In this document: positions 33,126-45,775 of the stretch, piece by piece | Layout of the letters: the number at the start of each line of letters is the position of its first letter | Numbering within the stretch: position 1 is the stretch's first letter | Assembly (NCBI RefSeq): GCF_025311495.1 | Contig: NZ_CP104398.1 | Coordinates: 124,001-188,000, forward strand | Source of the DNA: Limosilactobacillus oris | GTDB lineage: Bacteria; Bacillota; Bacilli; Lactobacillales; Lactobacillaceae | Length of the DNA: 64,000 bases | Reading direction: 5' to 3' | Made by a program: the position numbers and the translations under genes | The notes under the pieces: generated by a model | The model's input: the letters and a program-made list of their open reading frames with translations, nothing else | Told to the model about the DNA's origin: nothing | Database searches by the model: none

Positions 33126-33173
33126 AGCAGTTCCTCAAATCAGCTTGATCTGAGGAACTGCTTTTGTCTTTTA
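33126..33173. terminator. Bidirectional terminator between the surface pseudogene and pepD
   Basis: AAGCAGTTCCTCA pairs perfectly with TGAGGAACTGCTT, followed by TTGTCTTTT on the plus strand. Confidence 0.85.
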
Positions 33174-34577
33174 TAGGTTTTCATCAGTGTTGAAGTTCAG
33201 TGGGGAGTAGTCAGTCATCTTAGTGATTAACTCCAGTGTGAGCTTCTTATAGGCATTCATTGTATCCGTAGCGAAGTTTTCACTTTGCTGGGTTAGGAAA
33301 TTTGCCCGCTCGCTGCCCTGGTAGCTGGCTAAGGCGCGGTCGGTTTCTTTAATCAGTTTAATTGCCGCGGCGTTCCGCTCTTTTTGCACTTCTTCTAGCA
33401 AGGGAAGGAAGTCGTGAAGGTGGCTGTCAACGAGGACGCTTGCGTGCTTGAAGATCCAGTAAGCGGAATTAAGCTGGGCTGGCAGTTTCCCTCGCTTATA
33501 AGGAGCAGGGACATCTGTGATTCCGTTGAAGAAGGGAACGTAAGTACTCTCGGCGGCAACTCCCATTGCGAGCCAGTGGATGTTAGCCCCCGTTTGCCGC
33601 CCCATCTGCAGGATGTGCGACTCTTGAGTCTTAGCCAGGCTAATTGGACGGTAGCGGTGGGCAAGAGGACCCTTGCTCAATGGATCGTAAGGGGTGCCGG
33701 CGAAGTGATCGCTGAGGTAGCGCTGGGCATCAAAAATGGAAAGCCGGCGGTTTGGCCTCATGATGAAAGGCAGGTCAGCACTTTCAGCTTGCTCGTCTTG
33801 TGCGTCCAGCGGGCTGAACATCTGGTGCCCAATCCAAACCCGGGGTTCACTATAAACGGCGTCGGCCCGGTCAGCAGTACCAAAAATTTGCCGGAAGTTG
33901 AAACCGGCAGGGTGAGGATTCAGATGGTTTTCCTCCACGAACTCGCGGATTCCCGGGTGGAACATAAAGTTTTCGGGGTCGTTGAAGTCAACCTCCTGGA
34001 TTGCCAGCTGGTTAGCAACCACCGCATAGGCGTCATCTGGAATGCGTTGGGCAACCCAGTAGTGGCCACTGCCGTTTTCGAAGTACCAGGCTTCATTATT
34101 ATCCGCAAAGAGGACGCCATTGGTTTCACCGCTGCCATATTTGGCGACTAAGTCACCCAGACGTTGGACACCTTCCCGAGCAGTTTTGACGAACGGCAGA
34201 ACAACGGTGATCATCGCTTCCTCGTTTAAGCCGTGCTCCACGTGGGGGTCGCAGCCGAGGACCAGCTGGTTTGAGTAGGCACTCTCGGTTGCGCTCATTG
34301 CCACGTCGTATTCGTTGATTCCGTCTTCTTCAAAGAGCCCCGCCCGGTCAGTCCACTCGGGGGTGGCGGTATAGCGGGCGCTTTCTCCGGGGAGGACTAA
34401 CTCGAGCTTAGTTTCTTTGGAGATAAAGCGCTTGCCGAGCTCACCCCGCTGGTGAACAACCATGTGCTTAGGCCAGGCTGCCTTTGCATCTTCGTTCCGG
34501 CCAATCATGATTGAGCCATCAATACTGGCCTTTTTACCAATTAGAATGCTCGTACAAGCTGATAGCGTGTTTGTCAT
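33171..34577 (-). CDS. pepD: C69-family dipeptidase (PepD type), copy 1
   Basis: This is a 468-residue N-terminal-nucleophile dipeptidase. The active-site Cys8 lies in LSACTSILIGKKAS and would be exposed by trimming the first seven residues; RNEDAKAAW follows, as in Lactobacillus PepD. The enzyme cleaves a broad range of dipeptides in the cytoplasm, feeding amino acids to growth. ATG 34577 follows AAAGGGGGA. It is a monocistronic unit. A second family member, 44295-45710, shares motifs such as EEDGINE, KYGS and SHILQ, but sits in an island with an OPT transporter. Confidence 0.93.
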   Translation of the reverse strand: MTNTLSACTSILIGKKASIDGSIMIGRNEDAKAAWPKHMVVHQRGELGKRFISKETKLELVLPGESARYTATPEWTDRAGLFEEDGINEYDVAMSATESAYSNQLVLGCDPHVEHGLNEEAMITVVLPFVKTAREGVQRLGDLVAKYGSGETNGVLFADNNEAWYFENGSGHYWVAQRIPDDAYAVVANQLAIQEVDFNDPENFMFHPGIREFVEENHLNPHPAGFNFRQIFGTADRADAVYSEPRVWIGHQMFSPLDAQDEQAESADLPFIMRPNRRLSIFDAQRYLSDHFAGTPYDPLSKGPLAHRYRPISLAKTQESHILQMGRQTGANIHWLAMGVAAESTYVPFFNGITDVPAPYKRGKLPAQLNSAYWIFKHASVLVDSHLHDFLPLLEEVQKERNAAAIKLIKETDRALASYQGSERANFLTQQSENFATDTMNAYKKLTLELITKMTDYSPLNFNTDENL

Positions 34578-36870: not shown

Positions 36871-38391
<1,521 letters not shown>

Positions 38392-38561
38392 AACTTGTGG
38401 GTAATGTTGGTAAGAAAATTGGTTTTAAAGAAGCTAAGAAAATATCCCAGATTCTTAAAAAATGATGGTGTTATAGTGCATGGCTGCAAACTGGCAATTT
38501 AAATGCTGGAATTACCAATTACGGTTAAATAGATTCACAATGCGAACTAGTCATCCTTGAG

Positions 38562-38612
38562 GGAGTGGACTAATGAACTAGGTAGGATAGTTCATTAGTC
38601 CACTCCTTTTTT
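38562..38612 (+). terminator. Very strong terminator downstream of glpK
   Basis: A perfect 19-bp stem (38562-38580 with 38588-38606) encloses a 7-nt loop and is followed by TTTTTT. It lies about 170 nt after the glpK stop. Confidence 0.92.
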
Positions 38613-38940
38613 AATCAACGTAATAACTCCTGATAATTAGTGAAAAATAGGCGTTTTTACGTATGGGTGGGAGCATATATGAATGATTAATCATGTAATT
38701 GTAATTAAAAAGAACGTTTTTACACATAAATAAAAAATCATAAATAATACTTACTTTTATTAATTAAATAGTTGCTATATATTAGGCGGCTCCTTCCACT
38801 ATTGTCTTAATAGGATTGCGTGATAATCACGGGAGACAAATTTGTTGTTTCACAAGTAGTTAATTGATATTTATATGTAAAATAGTAAGCGCTTACTAGT
38901 AGTAATTGCAAATGGTTATGAATATTAATTGTGAAACGAT
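38613..38940. other. AT-rich, gene-free stretch before the cyuP-like gene
   Basis: No gene or RNA is recognised. Base composition becomes clearly AT-richer than in the flanking core genes and stays so through the next genes. The only ordered element is the cre-like palindrome at 38883-38898. Confidence 0.5.
38884..38897. promoter_or_regulatory. cre-like palindrome upstream of the cyu-like operon
   Basis: AGTAAGCGCTTACT matches the CcpA cre consensus at 13 of 14 positions and is the core of a perfect 16-nt palindrome, TAGTAAGC-GCTTACTA. It lies about 50 nt upstream of the predicted -35. Confidence 0.55.
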
Positions 38941-38948
38941 TTTGGAAA

Positions 38949-38976
38949 TTGAAAAAGGATAGTCTAATGATATAGT
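38949..38976 (+). promoter_or_regulatory. Promoter of the cyuP-cyuA-like genes
   Basis: TTGAAA and TATAGT are separated by 16 nt, with TGA preceding the -10 (extended -10). The start codon is about 95 nt downstream. Confidence 0.5.
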
Positions 38977-39070
38977 GATGATGTGCACAACATATGTGAA
39001 GTTAAACTAAATAGCGCGTTAAAGTTCTACTTTTGTAAATTTTATTTATGTTCTATAAGGGGGGATTTCG

Positions 39071-40372
39071 ATGAAAAATTCAAGTCAGGAGGAAATGATG
39101 GCCTCTAAGGCTGGCTTAACGGTTGATGAATGGCGCAAAGAAACAAAATTTGACAGTGTTGATCGTGGCTGGGTAATTATGAGTATCGGAATGGCAATTG
39201 GTGCGGGAATCGTTTACCTTCCGGTTAAAGTTGGTATTGTAGGTATTTGGACATTTTTAATTTCTGTAATCATTGCTTACCCAGCAATTTATTTGTTTCA
39301 AAAGCTTTTTATTAACACGCTAGCTGAATCGAAAGAATGCGTGGACTACCCAACCGTAATCACAAACTACTTGGGGAAAAATTGGGGATTCTTTCTAGGA
39401 ATTCTATATTTCCTTATGCTGGTTATCTGGGTGTTTATATATTCAACTTGTGTCGTTAATGATAGTGCCTCTTTTTTGCAAACTTTTGGTGTTACTAAGG
39501 GTGTCCTTTCAGATAATCCATTTTACAGTCTTGCGGTTATCTGTATCTTAGTTTTAATTTCTTCACTAAGTGAGAAACTGCTATTCAAGATTTCAGGCCC
39601 ACTAGTAATTATTAAATTAGCGGTTATTGTACTACTAGGAATTGTTATGATTCGTTTCTGGAATTTAAGCAACCTGGGGGCCTTTCCACCGTTGGGATAT
39701 TTGATTAAGCAAACAATTGTATTATTACCGTTCACGCTCACATCAATTATTTTTATTCAGTCACTATCCCCGATGGTAATTTCTTATCGAGCCCACAATA
39801 AGAATATTGAGGTAGCTCGCTATAAGGCATCACGAGCGATGAAAATTGCCTTTTTGACTTTATTCGCTGCGGTACTGTTTTATGCATTCTCGTTCAGCTT
39901 TTCAATTGACCATGCTCAAGCTGTTGAAGCCAATAAAGAGAACATTTCCGCACTTGCCATTGCAGCCAAAGGGATGAGTGGCAATACAGTTAAGGTTGCT
40001 GCGTTGACAATGAGTATTCTTGCGGTGGTTACAGCATTTTTCTCAAATTTTCAGGGCTTTAGAGAGGCTTGTCAAGGAATTGCTGTGAATGTTTTAAAAC
40101 GATTCATGCCAGAGAGTCGAATTAACATGAAAGTCTTACATGTAGGAATCTTAATTTTCGCAATTTTAATCACTTGGCTGGTCGCGGTTATTAATGCACC
40201 TATTTTAAATTACACCTCATATTGTTCACCGATATTTGGAATTATCGGTTGTCTGTTACCGACGTATCTTGTTTATAAAGTCCCTGCTCTCCATCACTTG
40301 AAGAGTCCCGGCTTTATCTTAATTATTTTAACCGGAATCTTATTAGTAATTTCACCATTTTTAGCTGTTTAA
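39071..40372 (+). CDS. HAAAP-family amino acid transporter (SdaC/CyuP-like)
   Basis: The 433-residue, 11-segment transporter belongs to the hydroxy/aromatic amino acid permease family. It starts with a soluble tail (DEWRKETKFDSVDRGWVIMSIGMAIGAGIVYLPV read as two motifs, DRGWVIMSIGMAIGAGI and YLPVKVG). E. coli relatives import serine (SdaC) or cysteine (CyuP, formerly YhaO). The next gene, 17 nt away, encodes a CyuA-type cysteine desulfidase, the same pairing as E. coli cyuPA, so cysteine is the likeliest substrate. ATG 39071 follows AAGGGGGG. Codon use is AT-rich compared with neighbouring core genes. Confidence 0.82.
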   Translation: MKNSSQEEMMASKAGLTVDEWRKETKFDSVDRGWVIMSIGMAIGAGIVYLPVKVGIVGIWTFLISVIIAYPAIYLFQKLFINTLAESKECVDYPTVITNYLGKNWGFFLGILYFLMLVIWVFIYSTCVVNDSASFLQTFGVTKGVLSDNPFYSLAVICILVLISSLSEKLLFKISGPLVIIKLAVIVLLGIVMIRFWNLSNLGAFPPLGYLIKQTIVLLPFTLTSIIFIQSLSPMVISYRAHNKNIEVARYKASRAMKIAFLTLFAAVLFYAFSFSFSIDHAQAVEANKENISALAIAAKGMSGNTVKVAALTMSILAVVTAFFSNFQGFREACQGIAVNVLKRFMPESRINMKVLHVGILIFAILITWLVAVINAPILNYTSYCSPIFGIIGCLLPTYLVYKVPALHHLKSPGFILIILTGILLVISPFLAV

Positions 40373-40389
40373 TATAGGGGGAATAAAAA

Positions 40390-41688
40390 ATGGAACAAGC
40401 AAAACAAAGTATGTATCTAAAGGCCCTTCATAAGGGAGTCTCTACTGCTACTGGCTGTACGGAACCGGTGGCAGTAGCCTTTGCAGTGGCAACCTGTGCT
40501 GAACAATTGAATCACGAAGAACCTAAACAGATCGACGTGAAAGTTTCGGCCAACATTATGAAAAATGCAATTGCAGTTATTGTACCAGGAACAGGTCAAC
40601 CAGGTTTGCCAATTGCTGCTGCGGTTGGTTACCTATATGGGGATGCTTCCAAGGGAATGAAAGTAATTCCTAAACTAACTGCTGAAGATGATAAAAAAAT
40701 AGTTGCTTTGGCAACTTCTGGAAAGATTACGGTCTCAGTAGCTGATGTCCAGGATAAATTATACGTTCAGGTTAAGGTAACGACCGTCAACAATAATACT
40801 TCAGAAGTATACATTGCAGCTGATCATACAAATATATATCTTATCAAGAAAAATGGAGAAACTGTATTTTCGAAGGAACGTCCGGCAGTGGATTCATTGG
40901 CTGACTGGGAATTATTTATGCAGAAGAGCAGTTTAGAGGAAATTTGGAATTTCTGCATGACTACACCGTTGGAAGAACTAAAATTTATTAAAATTGCACA
41001 GGAATATAATATGGCACTGGCCAAAGAGGGGCTCACGAACAACTATGGTATGAAAGTTGGCCGTTCAATGAACAATCCACAAGGCATTGCTTATGAAAAT
41101 TCTTTGACCAACGAAATTGTTTCAAAGACAGCGGCGGCTTCCGATGCAAGGATGGGTGGTGCACAGTTACCGGCTGTCACTAACTCCGGATCAGGCAACC
41201 AAGGAATCACGGCTACGGTACCAGTATGTGTGATTGCTGAATATAAAGGTGCGGATGAGGAACAGCTAATTCGCGCACTTGCCTTATCGCATTTAACTGC
41301 TATTTACGTCCATTCATTTTTGCCGATTTTATCGGCATATTGTGCGACTCATTCTGCCGCAATGGGAGCTGCTACCGGGATTTGCTACCTGCTTGGCGGG
41401 AACATAGACGATGCCAGCCGTGCAATTAAGAATATGGTTGGTGACGCATCAGGTATGATCTGTGATGGTGCTGGATGCTCATGTGCTATTAAGGTTGCCA
41501 CATCAATTCAAACGATGTTTAAAGCAGTTAATTTGGCCATGCAAGGAGTTACTATTCCAGGAACTAATGGAGTGGTAAGTGATTCGGTTGATGAAACGAT
41601 TAGAAGTTTAGGCAAGCTTACGCGCAATGGGTTGGCAGCGTCTGATTCAGTAATATTAAAAATTATGATGGATAAACAGGGCAACTAG
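40390..41688 (+). CDS. cyuA: L-cysteine desulfidase family protein (CyuA/YhaM, UPF0597)
   Basis: This is a 432-residue protein of the UPF0597 family. Members degrade L-cysteine to pyruvate, sulfide and ammonia using an oxygen-sensitive iron-sulfur cluster. The signature ATGCTEPVAVAFAVA near residue 19 is intact, and Cys residues in GMICDGAGCSCAIK (~residues 358-371) are candidate cluster ligands. ATG 40390 follows ATAGGGGG. It forms an operon with the transporter upstream. No terminator is visible before the OPT gene, about 270 nt on, so co-transcription is possible. Confidence 0.9.
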   Translation: MEQAKQSMYLKALHKGVSTATGCTEPVAVAFAVATCAEQLNHEEPKQIDVKVSANIMKNAIAVIVPGTGQPGLPIAAAVGYLYGDASKGMKVIPKLTAEDDKKIVALATSGKITVSVADVQDKLYVQVKVTTVNNNTSEVYIAADHTNIYLIKKNGETVFSKERPAVDSLADWELFMQKSSLEEIWNFCMTTPLEELKFIKIAQEYNMALAKEGLTNNYGMKVGRSMNNPQGIAYENSLTNEIVSKTAAASDARMGGAQLPAVTNSGSGNQGITATVPVCVIAEYKGADEEQLIRALALSHLTAIYVHSFLPILSAYCATHSAAMGAATGICYLLGGNIDDASRAIKNMVGDASGMICDGAGCSCAIKVATSIQTMFKAVNLAMQGVTIPGTNGVVSDSVDETIRSLGKLTRNGLAASDSVILKIMMDKQGN

Positions 41689-41958
41689 CCCGAAAAGAGG
41701 TTAAATTAATAATTTGTTTTCTTAAGGCTGTATTGTTAGTCAATGTAAGTTTATTTAATGACAAGAAATATTAAGAAGTTAGCAGAATTTTGCACAGGAA
41801 TAAGCGATTAGTCTTTTATAATTAAAGTCAAATAATATTTTGCTCATATCACCCTCATAATCTTGTGAAACCATTCATTATCTATCAAACATGGGGTATG
41901 ATAAATTTTGGAAACGCTATTATATTTATTGGGTATTCCAATTAGGGGGAATATTATT

Positions 41959-43899
41959 ATGAAGAAAAAGACTCTTGATCAGTCGGCGTATGGCGGTGTA
42001 CCAGGAAGCAAGTACATTCCATATCTAGGTTCACACGATGGACTTGGTGGTAGTCCGCTGATTATGATTTTTGGTGCTGTTTTGGCTGTAATTTTTGCAG
42101 CATCAACGGCATATTCTGGAATGAAGGCTGGATTGACAGTTTCAGCTGGTATCCCTGGAGCAATTTTAGGATCAGGCTTAGTTGCGGCCTTTGCTAAGAA
42201 AAAGGGGATTCTAGGAGTTAACTTAATCCAAGGAATGTCTAGCGGTGGTGAAGCGATTGCCAGTGGGATGATTTATGTCTTGCCGTCAATCGTTCTGATT
42301 GGTCGTAAGATCAGCTTTACCTATGGCTTCCTTGTGGGGGTTACTGCCGTTGCGTTTGCAATCGGTGTTTCTAATATTGTTTTTAATTACTTAATCATTA
42401 CGCAGCATGGGACATTAAAGTATCCTGAATCGATGGCGATTGCTGAAACACTGGTTGCTTCGGAAGCTGGTGGTGAATCACTAAAGATGATGGGAGTGGG
42501 TTTTGGTATCGGTGGTATCTTAACCTTCTTTACAACCCAGTTTATGGGTTGGTGTAACAGTATGATTGAATTCTCCAGCAAGAAATTTTATAAATGGGAT
42601 ATGTCGACTGAAGTAAACCCAATGCTACTCGGAATTGGGTTTATTATCGGGATTAATATTTCCATCATCATGATTTCTGGGACAATATTTGCTCAATTTG
42701 CGGTTGCACCTTTACTTAGTTACTTCATTGGGATGTCAGGTGATTCGTTTAAAGTTTGGAACGATGCAAGCATCCAGCTGAACCAGGCAGGAACTGACGT
42801 CGTAATTGGCGCCTATCTGAAATACATCGGTGCCGGGATGATGCTTGGTGGTGGAATTATCGGTGCTTTGAAGCTGATTCCTGCTATCAAGCAGTCAATT
42901 TCTGAAACTCTCAAAGCACGGAAGAGTAGTAATGGCGACAATGGTGATAAGTTCAGTTCAATGCTCTTGTTACTGGGAGCTGTATTGATTTTGGTAGTTT
43001 CCTTCTTCTTTGCAAAGTATAATATTATGATTGCATTGATTGGTGGCCTGCTATCAATTATTCTTTCATTCCTCTTCGTCATCGTTTCTGCCCGGATGGC
43101 AGGTTTGATTGGTGCTTCCAATAACCCGGTTTCTGGAATGACCATCGCGTCAATGGTAATTTTAACGTTGATTTTTGCAATTTGTGGCTGGTCAGACAAT
43201 GACCATGTGCAGATTCTATTGACTTTTGGTGTATTTATCGTTACTGCCATTTCTGTTGGATCTGGTTATATGCAGACTCAAAAGGTTTCCTTTGTTATCG
43301 GCGGTAATAAAAACGAAATGACTAAGTATTACTTAATTGCCGGTATTATTGGGACTATTGTTGTTGTGGGAACGATGATTCTTCTGGAACCACAATTGCG
43401 AATTACCGGCTCAAACCCACCATTTGGGTTACCACAGGCTAACCTGATTGCTGCCTTGACTCAGGGGATTATGTCCAATAAGCTTCCATGGGTAATGGTA
43501 ATTGCCGGTGTTATCCTTTCAATTGTTTTCTTCATGTTGGGCGTCCCTGTGATGGCATTTGCATTGGGCTTTTACCTTCCGGCTTCCACGACATCTATCA
43601 TTTTCATCGGTGCGGTTGTTCGTTACTTTGTAGAGAAGGTTACCAAAGACAAAGAAACCTCTAAGCATCGAATCTCGAGCGGTATTAGTATGTCATCTGG
43701 TTTAGTTGCCGGAAGCTCGATCATCGGTTTGATTGGTATCTTCCTGCACGTCTTTGGTGTTATTAAGGATAAGACCTTGACTGGTTTTGTGGCATCTAAT
43801 GAAATGGCTTGGGTCCTGTTAGTAATCATGCTGGTAGCAGTGCTGATTCCACTGTTTAGAATTCATGGACCGCAGGCAAATTCGGGAGAAGACAAGTAA
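41959..43899 (+). CDS. OPT-family oligopeptide transporter
   Basis: The 646-residue, roughly 14-16-segment protein belongs to the oligopeptide transporter (OPT/YSL) superfamily, proton-coupled importers of small peptides, glutathione or metal chelates. It carries the family-type GSPLIMIFGAVLAVIFAAS opening helix and the ESMAIAETLVASEAGG motif near residue 158. ATG 41959 follows AGGGGG; the longer frame from 41908 lacks an RBS. The next gene starts inside its stop region (TAATG), and a dipeptidase follows, so the imported peptide is probably cleaved in the cytoplasm. The precise substrate is unknown. Confidence 0.9.
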   Translation: MKKKTLDQSAYGGVPGSKYIPYLGSHDGLGGSPLIMIFGAVLAVIFAASTAYSGMKAGLTVSAGIPGAILGSGLVAAFAKKKGILGVNLIQGMSSGGEAIASGMIYVLPSIVLIGRKISFTYGFLVGVTAVAFAIGVSNIVFNYLIITQHGTLKYPESMAIAETLVASEAGGESLKMMGVGFGIGGILTFFTTQFMGWCNSMIEFSSKKFYKWDMSTEVNPMLLGIGFIIGINISIIMISGTIFAQFAVAPLLSYFIGMSGDSFKVWNDASIQLNQAGTDVVIGAYLKYIGAGMMLGGGIIGALKLIPAIKQSISETLKARKSSNGDNGDKFSSMLLLLGAVLILVVSFFFAKYNIMIALIGGLLSIILSFLFVIVSARMAGLIGASNNPVSGMTIASMVILTLIFAICGWSDNDHVQILLTFGVFIVTAISVGSGYMQTQKVSFVIGGNKNEMTKYYLIAGIIGTIVVVGTMILLEPQLRITGSNPPFGLPQANLIAALTQGIMSNKLPWVMVIAGVILSIVFFMLGVPVMAFALGFYLPASTTSIIFIGAVVRYFVEKVTKDKETSKHRISSGISMSSGLVAGSSIIGLIGIFLHVFGVIKDKTLTGFVASNEMAWVLLVIMLVAVLIPLFRIHGPQANSGEDK

Positions 43900-44276
43900 T
43901 GCAACTGAACCGTGAAAAGAAAAAGGGGATTACGGAGGACGACTTAAAACGGCTAGTTTATAAGCGGAATCCGCAGGCACATTATGTTGTTAAAGATGGG
44001 ATTGTCACAATTATTAAGGAAAATAATCATCCAATACAGCGTTTCTTTCGCAATCGACTCCATTTTAATATTCCCGAAGAGAGCACGCTTGATTTAGACC
44101 GGTATGGAAGCTATGTTTTTTTGCACTTAGATGGCAAAACCAATGTATACGACTTGGGTCAGGCATTGGGAAGGAAGTTTGATGAAACCCGCAAGTATCA
44201 ATATACGCGACTTGTCTTATATCTTCGCCAGCTTGATCACCAGAATAATCTAATCATTAAAGTAAAAGGTAACTAA
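43899..44276 (+). CDS. PqqD-fold (RRE-like) protein in an OPT-dipeptidase operon
   Basis: The 125-residue protein has a basic N-terminal ~45 residues followed by a PqqD-like winged helix-turn-helix: LDRYGSYVFLHLDGKTNVYDLG, then RLVLYLRQLDHQNNLI (~residues 62-119). The FLHLDGKTNVYDLGQAL run is the family signature. PqqD domains (RREs) bind the leader part of peptides for modifying enzymes in RiPP and PQQ pathways. No radical-SAM, cyclodehydratase or other RiPP enzyme is nearby. It overlaps the OPT stop by one base and precedes a C69 dipeptidase by 18 nt, so it may present peptides between the two. That role is inference. Confidence 0.72.
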   Translation: MQLNREKKKGITEDDLKRLVYKRNPQAHYVVKDGIVTIIKENNHPIQRFFRNRLHFNIPEESTLDLDRYGSYVFLHLDGKTNVYDLGQALGRKFDETRKYQYTRLVLYLRQLDHQNNLIIKVKGN

Positions 44277-44294
44277 TTTTAGGAGGTTATCGCT

Positions 44295-45710
44295 ATGCAA
44301 AATAAAGATGCTTGTACGTCAATTATGGTTGGTAAAAAGGCTTCTTTGGATGGAGCTACTTATATTGCTCGGAACGAAGACCGGGTTAAAGCAATTGAGC
44401 CGAAGCGCTTCCTGGTAAAGCCTGCCGTTGAAGGACGGCATGAAACTTACGTGTCACCTTATAATAAGGTAACCGTCCCGATGCCAGAAAAGGGGATGCG
44501 CTACACTTCTACGCCTAGTTTGAATCAAAAGACTGGTCCAAACGAAGAAGATGGAATCAACGAAGCTAACGTTGCCGCCTCCTTTACCGAGAGTGTTTAT
44601 GCGAACGATCGGGTTCTGGCTTATGACCCGTTTATCAAGAATGGGTTGGCAGAGGACTCGCTCTGTACGTTAATTCTGCCATTTATCCACTCTGCCCGGG
44701 AAGGTGTTGAATATACCGGAAAATTAATTGCCAAGTATGGTTCAGCGGAGGGTAACGGGATGCAATTCGCTGATGAGGACAGTGTTTGGTACATGGAAGT
44801 TGTCACTGGTCACCAGTGGGTAGCTGTTCGGATTCCGGATGATTGTTATGCTGTGACACCAAACCAGGTAGCAATTGAGGACATTGACTTTGATGATCCT
44901 GAAAATTACATGTGGGCTGATGGTATCCAAGAATTTGTTGAGGAACACCAATTAAACCCTGACACTGACCGTTGGGACTTCCGGCACATCTTTGGGACCA
45001 GCACTCAAAAGGACCGGCACTACAACACACCACGGACTTGGTTTGCACAACGCTACCTTAGTCCTCAGGCTTCCCAGGGACAAATGCCAGAAGACTCGGA
45101 AATGCCATTTATTCGTAAGGCCGAGTTTAAGATTTCTAATGAAGACATCCAGTACGTTCTGAAGTCGCACTTCAACGAGACGCCTTATGACCCAATGGGG
45201 GACTCACCGGAAAACAAGACCTACCGGGCAATCTCCCTGTCCCGGACCGCGCAGTCACATATTTTGCAGGTTCGGAATGACAAGAAGTATAAGACCAGTG
45301 TTCACTGGATTGAGTTAGGGGTTCCAGCCTTCAACCCGTACGTTCCGTTCTTCGCTAACGCTGACGACACCGACGAGTCGTACCGGAATGTTCCTGAAAA
45401 GATGGACCTCAAATGTGCTTTCTGGTTAAATGAAGCTTTAGCGGAAGTTGTTGAAAGCCACTACAACGAATTTATCGAAAAGAACGAGGACTATCAAAAG
45501 GAACTTAACGAGTGGGCACGCCGGAAGATTGCCGAAGTCGACAAGGAAGCCGCTCAGTTGGACGGTCAAGCATTGGTTGACTACCTTACCAAGCAGAACC
45601 ATGAGGTAGCCGCTCACTATAACGAACGGACAAAGGAACTCTTCTTTGAATTACTGACCGAGGGGTGTGAACTTTCAAAGATGTCGTTCAAGATGGATCC
45701 AAACTTGTAA
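44295..45710 (+). CDS. C69-family dipeptidase, copy 2, in the OPT operon
   Basis: This 471-residue N-terminal-nucleophile dipeptidase has the catalytic Cys7 in DACTSIMVGKKASLDG, followed by RNEDRVKAIEP. It is the paralogue of the PepD at 33171-34577, with the same motifs EEDGINEA, KYGSAEGNG and QSHILQ but many differences elsewhere. AGGAGG precedes ATG 44295. No signal peptide is seen, so it acts in the cytoplasm. As the third gene of OPT-PqqD-dipeptidase it probably cleaves peptides imported by the transporter. A bidirectional terminator follows. Confidence 0.9.
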   Translation: MQNKDACTSIMVGKKASLDGATYIARNEDRVKAIEPKRFLVKPAVEGRHETYVSPYNKVTVPMPEKGMRYTSTPSLNQKTGPNEEDGINEANVAASFTESVYANDRVLAYDPFIKNGLAEDSLCTLILPFIHSAREGVEYTGKLIAKYGSAEGNGMQFADEDSVWYMEVVTGHQWVAVRIPDDCYAVTPNQVAIEDIDFDDPENYMWADGIQEFVEEHQLNPDTDRWDFRHIFGTSTQKDRHYNTPRTWFAQRYLSPQASQGQMPEDSEMPFIRKAEFKISNEDIQYVLKSHFNETPYDPMGDSPENKTYRAISLSRTAQSHILQVRNDKKYKTSVHWIELGVPAFNPYVPFFANADDTDESYRNVPEKMDLKCAFWLNEALAEVVESHYNEFIEKNEDYQKELNEWARRKIAEVDKEAAQLDGQALVDYLTKQNHEVAAHYNERTKELFFELLTEGCELSKMSFKMDPNL

Positions 45711-45730: not shown

Positions 45731-45775
45731 AAAGGCTCAGGAACCGGATAATGTTAACGGTTCCTGAGTCTTTGC
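45731..45775. terminator. Bidirectional terminator between the C69 dipeptidase and pepQ
   Basis: GGCTCAGGAACC pairs with GGTTCCTGAGTC around a 13-nt loop, with AAAAA before and TTTGC after. It serves both converging genes. Confidence 0.85.

Follow-up and report, generated by a model that had tools for sequence, protein, structure and literature searches.

Do five neighbouring genes for transporters and catabolic enzymes serve one pathway or two? The question is raised by a 64,000-nucleotide (nt) stretch of the Limosilactobacillus oris genome, referred to here as the window (coordinates are window positions unless stated otherwise); the host genome consists of one contig of 2.0 Mb. The genes encode a CyuP-like transporter, the desulfidase CyuA, a transporter of the OPT family, a PqqD-like protein and a C69 family dipeptidase, and a first-pass annotation of this DNA had joined them into a single cysteine-peptide route. 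According to the present analysis they look like two side-by-side units, cyuPA and OPT-PqqD-C69 (the triad), rather than one pathway. The cyuPA unit is of a known kind; the pairing of an OPT transporter with a PqqD-like protein is the new part of the locus.

Layout of the locus and its counterparts in relatives

The open reading frames (ORFs) listed for the window between 39071 and 45710 include the five genes, all on the + strand: cyuP (39071..40372), cyuA (40390..41688), the OPT gene (41962..43899), the PqqD-like gene (43899..44276) and the C69 gene (44295..45710). Positions, strand and spacings (17 nt between cyuP and cyuA, a 1-nt overlap of the OPT and PqqD-like genes, and 18 nt before C69) agree with the first-pass annotation, and a gap of 273 nt separates cyuA from OPT. 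The AT-richness claimed for the island holds for the stretch, as the lowest-GC 6.6 kb of the window begin at 38401 (39.8% against a mean of 48.8%), but not for the C69 gene. The GC content at third codon positions (GC3) is 0.35 in both cyuP and cyuA, 0.42 in OPT, 0.41 in the PqqD-like gene and 0.52 in C69, the last value resembling those of the flanking genes; the cyuPA half and the triad half differ in this respect.

The pairing of CyuP with CyuA is borne out by the identities to the E. coli proteins and by the active-site residues. Among four E. coli HAAAP paralogues the transporter is closest to CyuP (62% identity, against 24-25% for SdaC, TdcC and YqeG); its TIGR00814 score of 405 bits lies below the cut-off of 525.8. 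CyuA, a putative [4Fe-4S] L-cysteine desulfidase, is 42% identical to E. coli CyuA and matches the solved CyuA chains 9he0/9fsl, which come from Methanococcus maripaludis and whose residue assignments, as given in the accessible part of PMC12647591, were used here. All five named active-site residues are kept: C23, E25, C318, C358 and C365 of the window protein align with C23, E25, C287, C329 and C336 of the M. maripaludis enzyme, the numbering of the solved chain being taken as two ahead of that in the paper. In E. coli, CyuP and CyuA jointly ferment cysteine, according to the accessible text of PMC9040844. The window pair shares with E. coli cyuPA the two genes, their order, the identities given above and the named catalytic residues. 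It differs in its surroundings, since the E. coli pair adjoins tdc serine/threonine genes whereas the window pair adjoins the OPT triad. Judged by sequence, it is an L-cysteine importer and desulfidase pair of known kind, for which cysteine-specific transport is predicted. A CyuR-type regulator, which in E. coli is linked to cyuPA, was not found among the scanned proteins of the ORFs at 36880-45710, the remainder of the genome not having been searched. Elsewhere cyuPA occurs as a free unit: for four triad genomes with an unlinked CyuA, CyuP stood beside CyuA in three of the four loci fetched. The CyuP gene of one relative (locus L279, 1175-2460) looks broken into two pieces. The other SDH_alpha match of the host genome (C1:1207415-1208198, outside the window) is split over two frames of 169 and 138 residues, and therefore the L-serine dehydratase subunit of this genome may be disrupted.

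In the Lactobacillaceae the triad is conserved as a separate unit without cyuPA. The PqqD-like gene was found in 23 of 301 genomes and 8 of 40 genera, being rare in Limosilactobacillus (3/50 genomes). OPT is its immediate upstream neighbour in 23/23 of the genomes that have it, separated by a short gap or overlapping it, and C69 lies downstream in 22/23 (the exception is locus L016). Loci of 15-18 kb were fetched from 20 of the 22 other triad genomes, and neither cyuA nor cyuPA was present in any of the 20. Deaminase genes lie in 17 of them, encoding L-serine dehydratase (SdaAB/SdaAA), TdcB or alanine dehydrogenase (from each protein cluster a single member was named, by NCBIfam matches above cut-off). 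In addition to these loci, Lactobacillus sp. LL6 (L030) has serine dehydratase genes upstream of the triad and no adjacent cyuA.

The window and L. oris DSM 4864 (L028) have all five genes side by side, and in L. viscerum CyuA adjoins the triad on a contig that ends before cyuP; beyond this one lineage CyuA was not found near the triad. The window's PqqD-like protein has 100% identical counterparts in L. oris DSM 4864 and in a Candidatus L. merdipullorum assembly, which makes the host a Limosilactobacillus close to L. oris. A CyuA homologue of 53-55% identity occurs in 4 of the 22 triad genomes, on other contigs or ~210 kb off, and in none of 28 genomes without the triad (p 0.03, kinship ignored); a fifth triad genome yields a single weak match. 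With cyuPA in 0/20 fetched triad loci and CyuA unlinked where it does occur, the five-gene neighbourhood is not conserved in relatives outside this lineage. Because their triad loci are without cyuA, and because cyuPA is found elsewhere on its own, the two are independent units joined in this lineage.

The OPT transporter and its PqqD-like neighbour

The OPT protein matches PF03169 over its full length (247 bits) and exceeds the cut-off of TIGR00733 (188.9 against 182.5), as befits a member of the family, from which it differs in having a PqqD-like partner gene. Within the frame 41908-43899, ATG 41962 with AGGGGG ahead is a likelier start than TTG 41908. A comparison with PDB sequences gave no match, apart from one chance hit (E 1.7). 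To our knowledge, bacterial OPT transporters have been little studied. The C69 protein is a full-length match to NF033678 (602 bits, cut-off 250) and begins with MQNKDAC, the N-terminal Cys of which is presumably functional. It resembles dipeptidases of the PepD type (solved homologue 5iau), and differs from them in its kept place behind OPT-PqqD in those 22 of 23 Lactobacillaceae loci. A second C69-type dipeptidase is encoded in the window (33171-34577, - strand), with ~42% identity to the C69 proteins of the same relatives to which the island C69 is 80-99% identical. In one relative (L045, 11252-12700) the C69 gene looks broken into two pieces.

Whereas the families assigned in the first-pass annotation stand for OPT, C69, the SDH_alpha/CyuA protein and the HAAAP transporter, the PqqD assignment holds only weakly. 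The 125-residue protein scores 19.7 bits with PF05402 (cut-off 23.4) and 16.2 with TIGR03859 (cut-off 46), and is the sole PqqD match in the genome. It resembles PqqD and the recognition elements (RREs) of ribosomally synthesized and post-translationally modified peptides (RiPPs) in this sub-threshold PF05402 match, which covers the C-terminal domain, and in that profile A2 weakly matches the PqqD structures 3g2b and 5sxy (E ~0.002); conserved residues are LD..GS, DG..TV and RL..YL. It differs from them in a longer N-terminal part, with an (I/L)(Q/E)R motif kept in the alignment, and in its neighbourhood, which holds a transporter and no RiPP enzyme among the scanned proteins.

Profile A1 of the PqqD-like protein matched 28 of 348 Bacilli genomes, and in 28/28 the best match has OPT directly upstream; one extra weak second match (L081) has no OPT next door. 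A search from the OPT side, which avoids the bias of starting from PqqD, gave strong matches (E up to 1e-57) in 52 Bacilli genomes, one of them a 465-residue partial frame, and in 33 of these genomes the PqqD-like gene lies directly downstream. Among Lactobacillaceae OPTs 18/23 have the partner. Across the Bacillota, 36 OPT rows in 32 of 299 genomes reach E 1e-69; a partner is present in 14 of the 30 loci fetched, the window's own being one of the six rows outside these 30. Shorter OPT-like proteins (~530-590 residues, with weaker PF03169 matches) were excluded from the counts, and no PqqD-like gene was found at three such loci fetched with flanks (L157-L159). Nor was an OPT-PqqD gene fusion seen in the loci read, the long PqqD frames that overlap OPT being in another frame.

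In four genomes the two proteins keep company although their genes are apart. Profile A2 matches 28 of 299 Bacillota genomes. Among the 20 strong matches (E up to 2.7e-9, a limit chosen after seeing the list), 15 are next to OPT, 4 come from genomes whose long OPT lies at another place and 1 from a genome with none; none of the 8 weaker ones (L132-L139) adjoins OPT, and no OPT match was obtained for their genomes. A long OPT is present in 19/20 genomes with a strong A2 match against 32/299 Bacillota genomes (p ~1e-20, kinship ignored). In a quick tree of 86 OPTs, partner presence needs 2 changes against 16.6 with shuffled labels, in a sample biased towards presence, since many of its rows had come from PqqD searches, and with a warning from the program about long branches. 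As to surroundings, in one Bacillota genome with OPT elsewhere (G724; L119, 1489-1839 and 2147-3331; L193) the PqqD-like gene follows an ABC peptide-binding protein, and the unlinked PqqD-like genes of three others (L121, L122, L123) adjoin genes that appear unrelated from their names, judged by eye.

A candidate for a partner-coupled residue was OPT Lys56 in the motif SGMK.G (42127-42129), where K or R is present in 103/103 PqqD-bearing rows and I or L in 18/18 rows from two Bacilli clades without the partner. It is not used as evidence here: 20 of 39 PqqD-lacking rows keep K/R at this position (one more has a gap), at most two events are represented, and several genomes occur in more than one row.

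For pairs outside the Lactobacillaceae 36 loci were fetched, and the 31 in which the PqqD frame could be placed were counted, representatives of the neighbour clusters being named. Within four genes of the PqqD-like gene there are PepD-type dipeptidases in 6 loci, PepV in 3 and alanine dehydrogenase in 2, and ABC peptide-binding proteins in 10/31, one of which (L193) is without an adjacent OPT. In annotated records, Enterococcus raffinosus has the order pepV-OPT-PqqD with an Xaa-Pro dipeptidyl-peptidase nearby, and Peptoclostridium acidaminophilum has OPT-PqqD followed by an aminoacyl-histidine dipeptidase. These dipeptidase and peptide-binding neighbours are the best evidence that the OPTs carry peptides. 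Public annotation names the OPT and PqqD genes separately, side by side, and a literature search, within the collection of papers covered, found none describing the pair. In the accessible part of PMC10040529 a PqqD family protein and a dipeptidase are named merely as separate clusters; in that of the RRE-Finder paper (PMC7470986) the word 'oligopeptide' is absent and OPT transporters go unmentioned.

Proposed roles and their alternatives

We consider it probable that the locus comprises two adjacent catabolic units, cyuP-cyuA for cysteine and OPT-PqqD-C69 for the import and cleavage of peptides that feed variable deaminases. In the former, L-cysteine would be taken up and, as in E. coli, split into pyruvate, ammonia and sulfide. 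In the latter, OPT would bring in short peptides with the PqqD-like protein as its cytoplasmic partner, binding the peptide or gating transport; the C69 dipeptidase would cut the imported products to amino acids, and deaminases at hand would turn these into pyruvate or 2-oxobutyrate, plus ammonia. The deaminase beside the triad varies, being the cysteine desulfidase here and L-serine dehydratase, the threonine/serine ammonia-lyase TdcB or alanine dehydrogenase in relatives, and so does the dipeptidase: Lactobacillaceae have C69, certain other lines PepD or PepV.

The genes themselves, their conservation and linkage, and the catalytic residues of CyuA are seen in the sequences, whereas we infer the direction and substrate of OPT transport, control by CcpA and the role of the PqqD-like protein. 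As this protein follows OPT closely in Lactobacillaceae and tracks it even when unlinked, in four genomes, it is most simply a cytoplasmic partner of OPT. How this came about can be proposed only tentatively: a protein of RRE fold may have given up guiding RiPP precursors to serve an OPT importer alone, as a subunit or as a chaperone that hands it peptides. The partnership would be an old one in Bacillota, absent from some lines through loss and now combined with interchangeable dipeptidases and deaminases.

Several observations weigh against these proposals. No PqqD-like gene lies within the 0.6-2 kb read around 19/52 Bacilli OPTs, nor beside 16/30 of the OPTs fetched from Bacillota, and therefore some OPTs do without such a partner. 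The five Lactobacillaceae OPTs without one (5/23) all belong to a single genus (g11), of which three other genomes carry the triad. Among the cargo of plant and fungal OPT relatives there are also metal chelates and glutathione. Three of the 20 triad loci (L031, L032, L042) are without the deaminases named above, and the counts come from related genomes, most deaminase loci sharing their gene order within a genus.

It is unlikely that the five genes together serve a single route, with OPT taking up a cysteine-containing peptide (Cys-Gly or glutathione-like), C69 cleaving it and CyuA releasing its sulfur. In favour of such a route are the gene order, all five being neighbours both here and in L. 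oris DSM 4864 and CyuA adjoining the triad in L. viscerum, and the restriction of strong CyuA matches to triad genomes among the 50 others tested (4/22 against 0/28, with the same p value and the same neglect of kinship). Against it, no CyuA was found close to the triad in genomes beyond this single lineage, Ser/Thr/Ala deaminases stand at 17/20 other triad loci, OPT is preceded by the 273-nt gap and by a cre-like site of its own, and GC3 differs between the halves. What survives of the first-pass pathway is the CyuP-CyuA pair, together with a likely peptide importer and a dipeptidase that feed amino-acid breakdown, whereas the single cysteine-peptide route is poorly supported and at best a special case of this lineage. 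Two findings had been named beforehand as telling against it, a lack of conserved neighbourhood and separate regulation of the halves, and both were in part obtained. Linkage in relatives led us to set aside a cysteine-specific reading of the whole island as its general function; for the triad a general peptide-to-pyruvate reading fits, and one specific for cysteine peptides fits poorly.

Two other roles for the PqqD-like protein have to be weighed. A winged-helix transcription regulator of the OPT operon seems improbable. RREs and helix-turn-helix DNA-binding domains are structurally related, according to the accessible part of PMC7470986, and the unlinked copies in four OPT-bearing genomes would suit a diffusible factor, but the kept residues resemble, by our reading, PqqD core positions and not a basic recognition helix, and profile scans of the protein matched no DNA-binding family. 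We give very little credence to a true RRE, with OPT importing, or C69 maturing, the modified peptide of a RiPP cluster. The RRE-Finder authors regard a PqqD-like gene as a strong sign of such a cluster when regulators, enzymes and transporters lie close by (same part of PMC7470986), and profile A2 weakly matches PqqD and the RRE-like protein TbiB1 (E 0.0018 to 0.38). Against this, no radical SAM or other modifying enzyme was detected among the nine window proteins scanned (the genome elsewhere and a precursor peptide were not searched for), and the protein, alone of its kind in the genome, has OPT as its constant neighbour.

The part worth following is the partnership of OPT and the PqqD-like protein. 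A small protein that tracks OPT genes across the Bacillota offers a direct handle on the mechanism of these transporters and, if it binds peptide, would represent a second job for the RRE fold outside RiPP synthesis. In lactobacilli the module points to a route, shared by some strains, from peptides to pyruvate and ammonia, and to sulfide in this lineage.

Control elements and further observations

Upstream of cyuP lies a cre-like palindrome, AGTAAGCGCTTACT (38884..38897), the only place in the window with one mismatch to TGWAARCGYTWNCW; when up to two mismatches are allowed, matches are no more frequent than by chance (28 found, 29 expected). It is followed on the + strand by a promoter-like site with an extended -10 (TTGAAA-16-TATAGT, 38949..38976), a pattern match of a class that is likewise at chance level in the window (15 against 18.5 in shuffles). 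Ahead of OPT there is a second cre-like site, TGGAAACGCTATTA (41909..41922, + strand), with two mismatches, found in the same place in L029 and L030. An alignment of four loci shows that L. oris, L. viscerum and LL6 share this site, TGRAARCGYTRTTA, which lies ~40 nt ahead of the OPT ATG; in LL6 no cyuA adjoins the triad. When sites before OPT in 24 loci were compared with shuffles, that of LL6 was rarely matched (3/100) and those of the other 23 were matched by at least 10/100 (21/100 for the window). In 20 other Lactobacillaceae loci none is clearly beyond shuffles (best 10/100), and L039 holds a like sequence. The kept site, as seen in the four aligned loci, argues for separate control of the two units, and CcpA may be the factor involved.

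Of the one promoter with a cre-like palindrome that had been placed in front of the run, the palindrome stands, but a single promoter is doubtful because of the cyuA-OPT gap and the kept site before OPT. As no terminator-like site is listed in this gap, read-through from cyuA into OPT is possible. The terminator claimed for the end of the run is real as a hairpin (45731..45773; 16-bp arms, 94% complementary; -27.6 kcal/mol; z -6.5 on the + and -5.2 on the - strand) and is perhaps shared with the convergent pepQ.

The PepQ loci of 12 Limosilactobacillus genomes were also compared in search of an empty site, and no clean one was found among them. In the Limosilactobacillus genome G321, of which the 19 kb read yielded no OPT, PqqD, cyuA or cyuP, a C69 gene (81% identity) sits beside PepQ in opposite orientation. 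At this locus (L208, 10227-13925) C69, PepQ and Ldh share one orientation.

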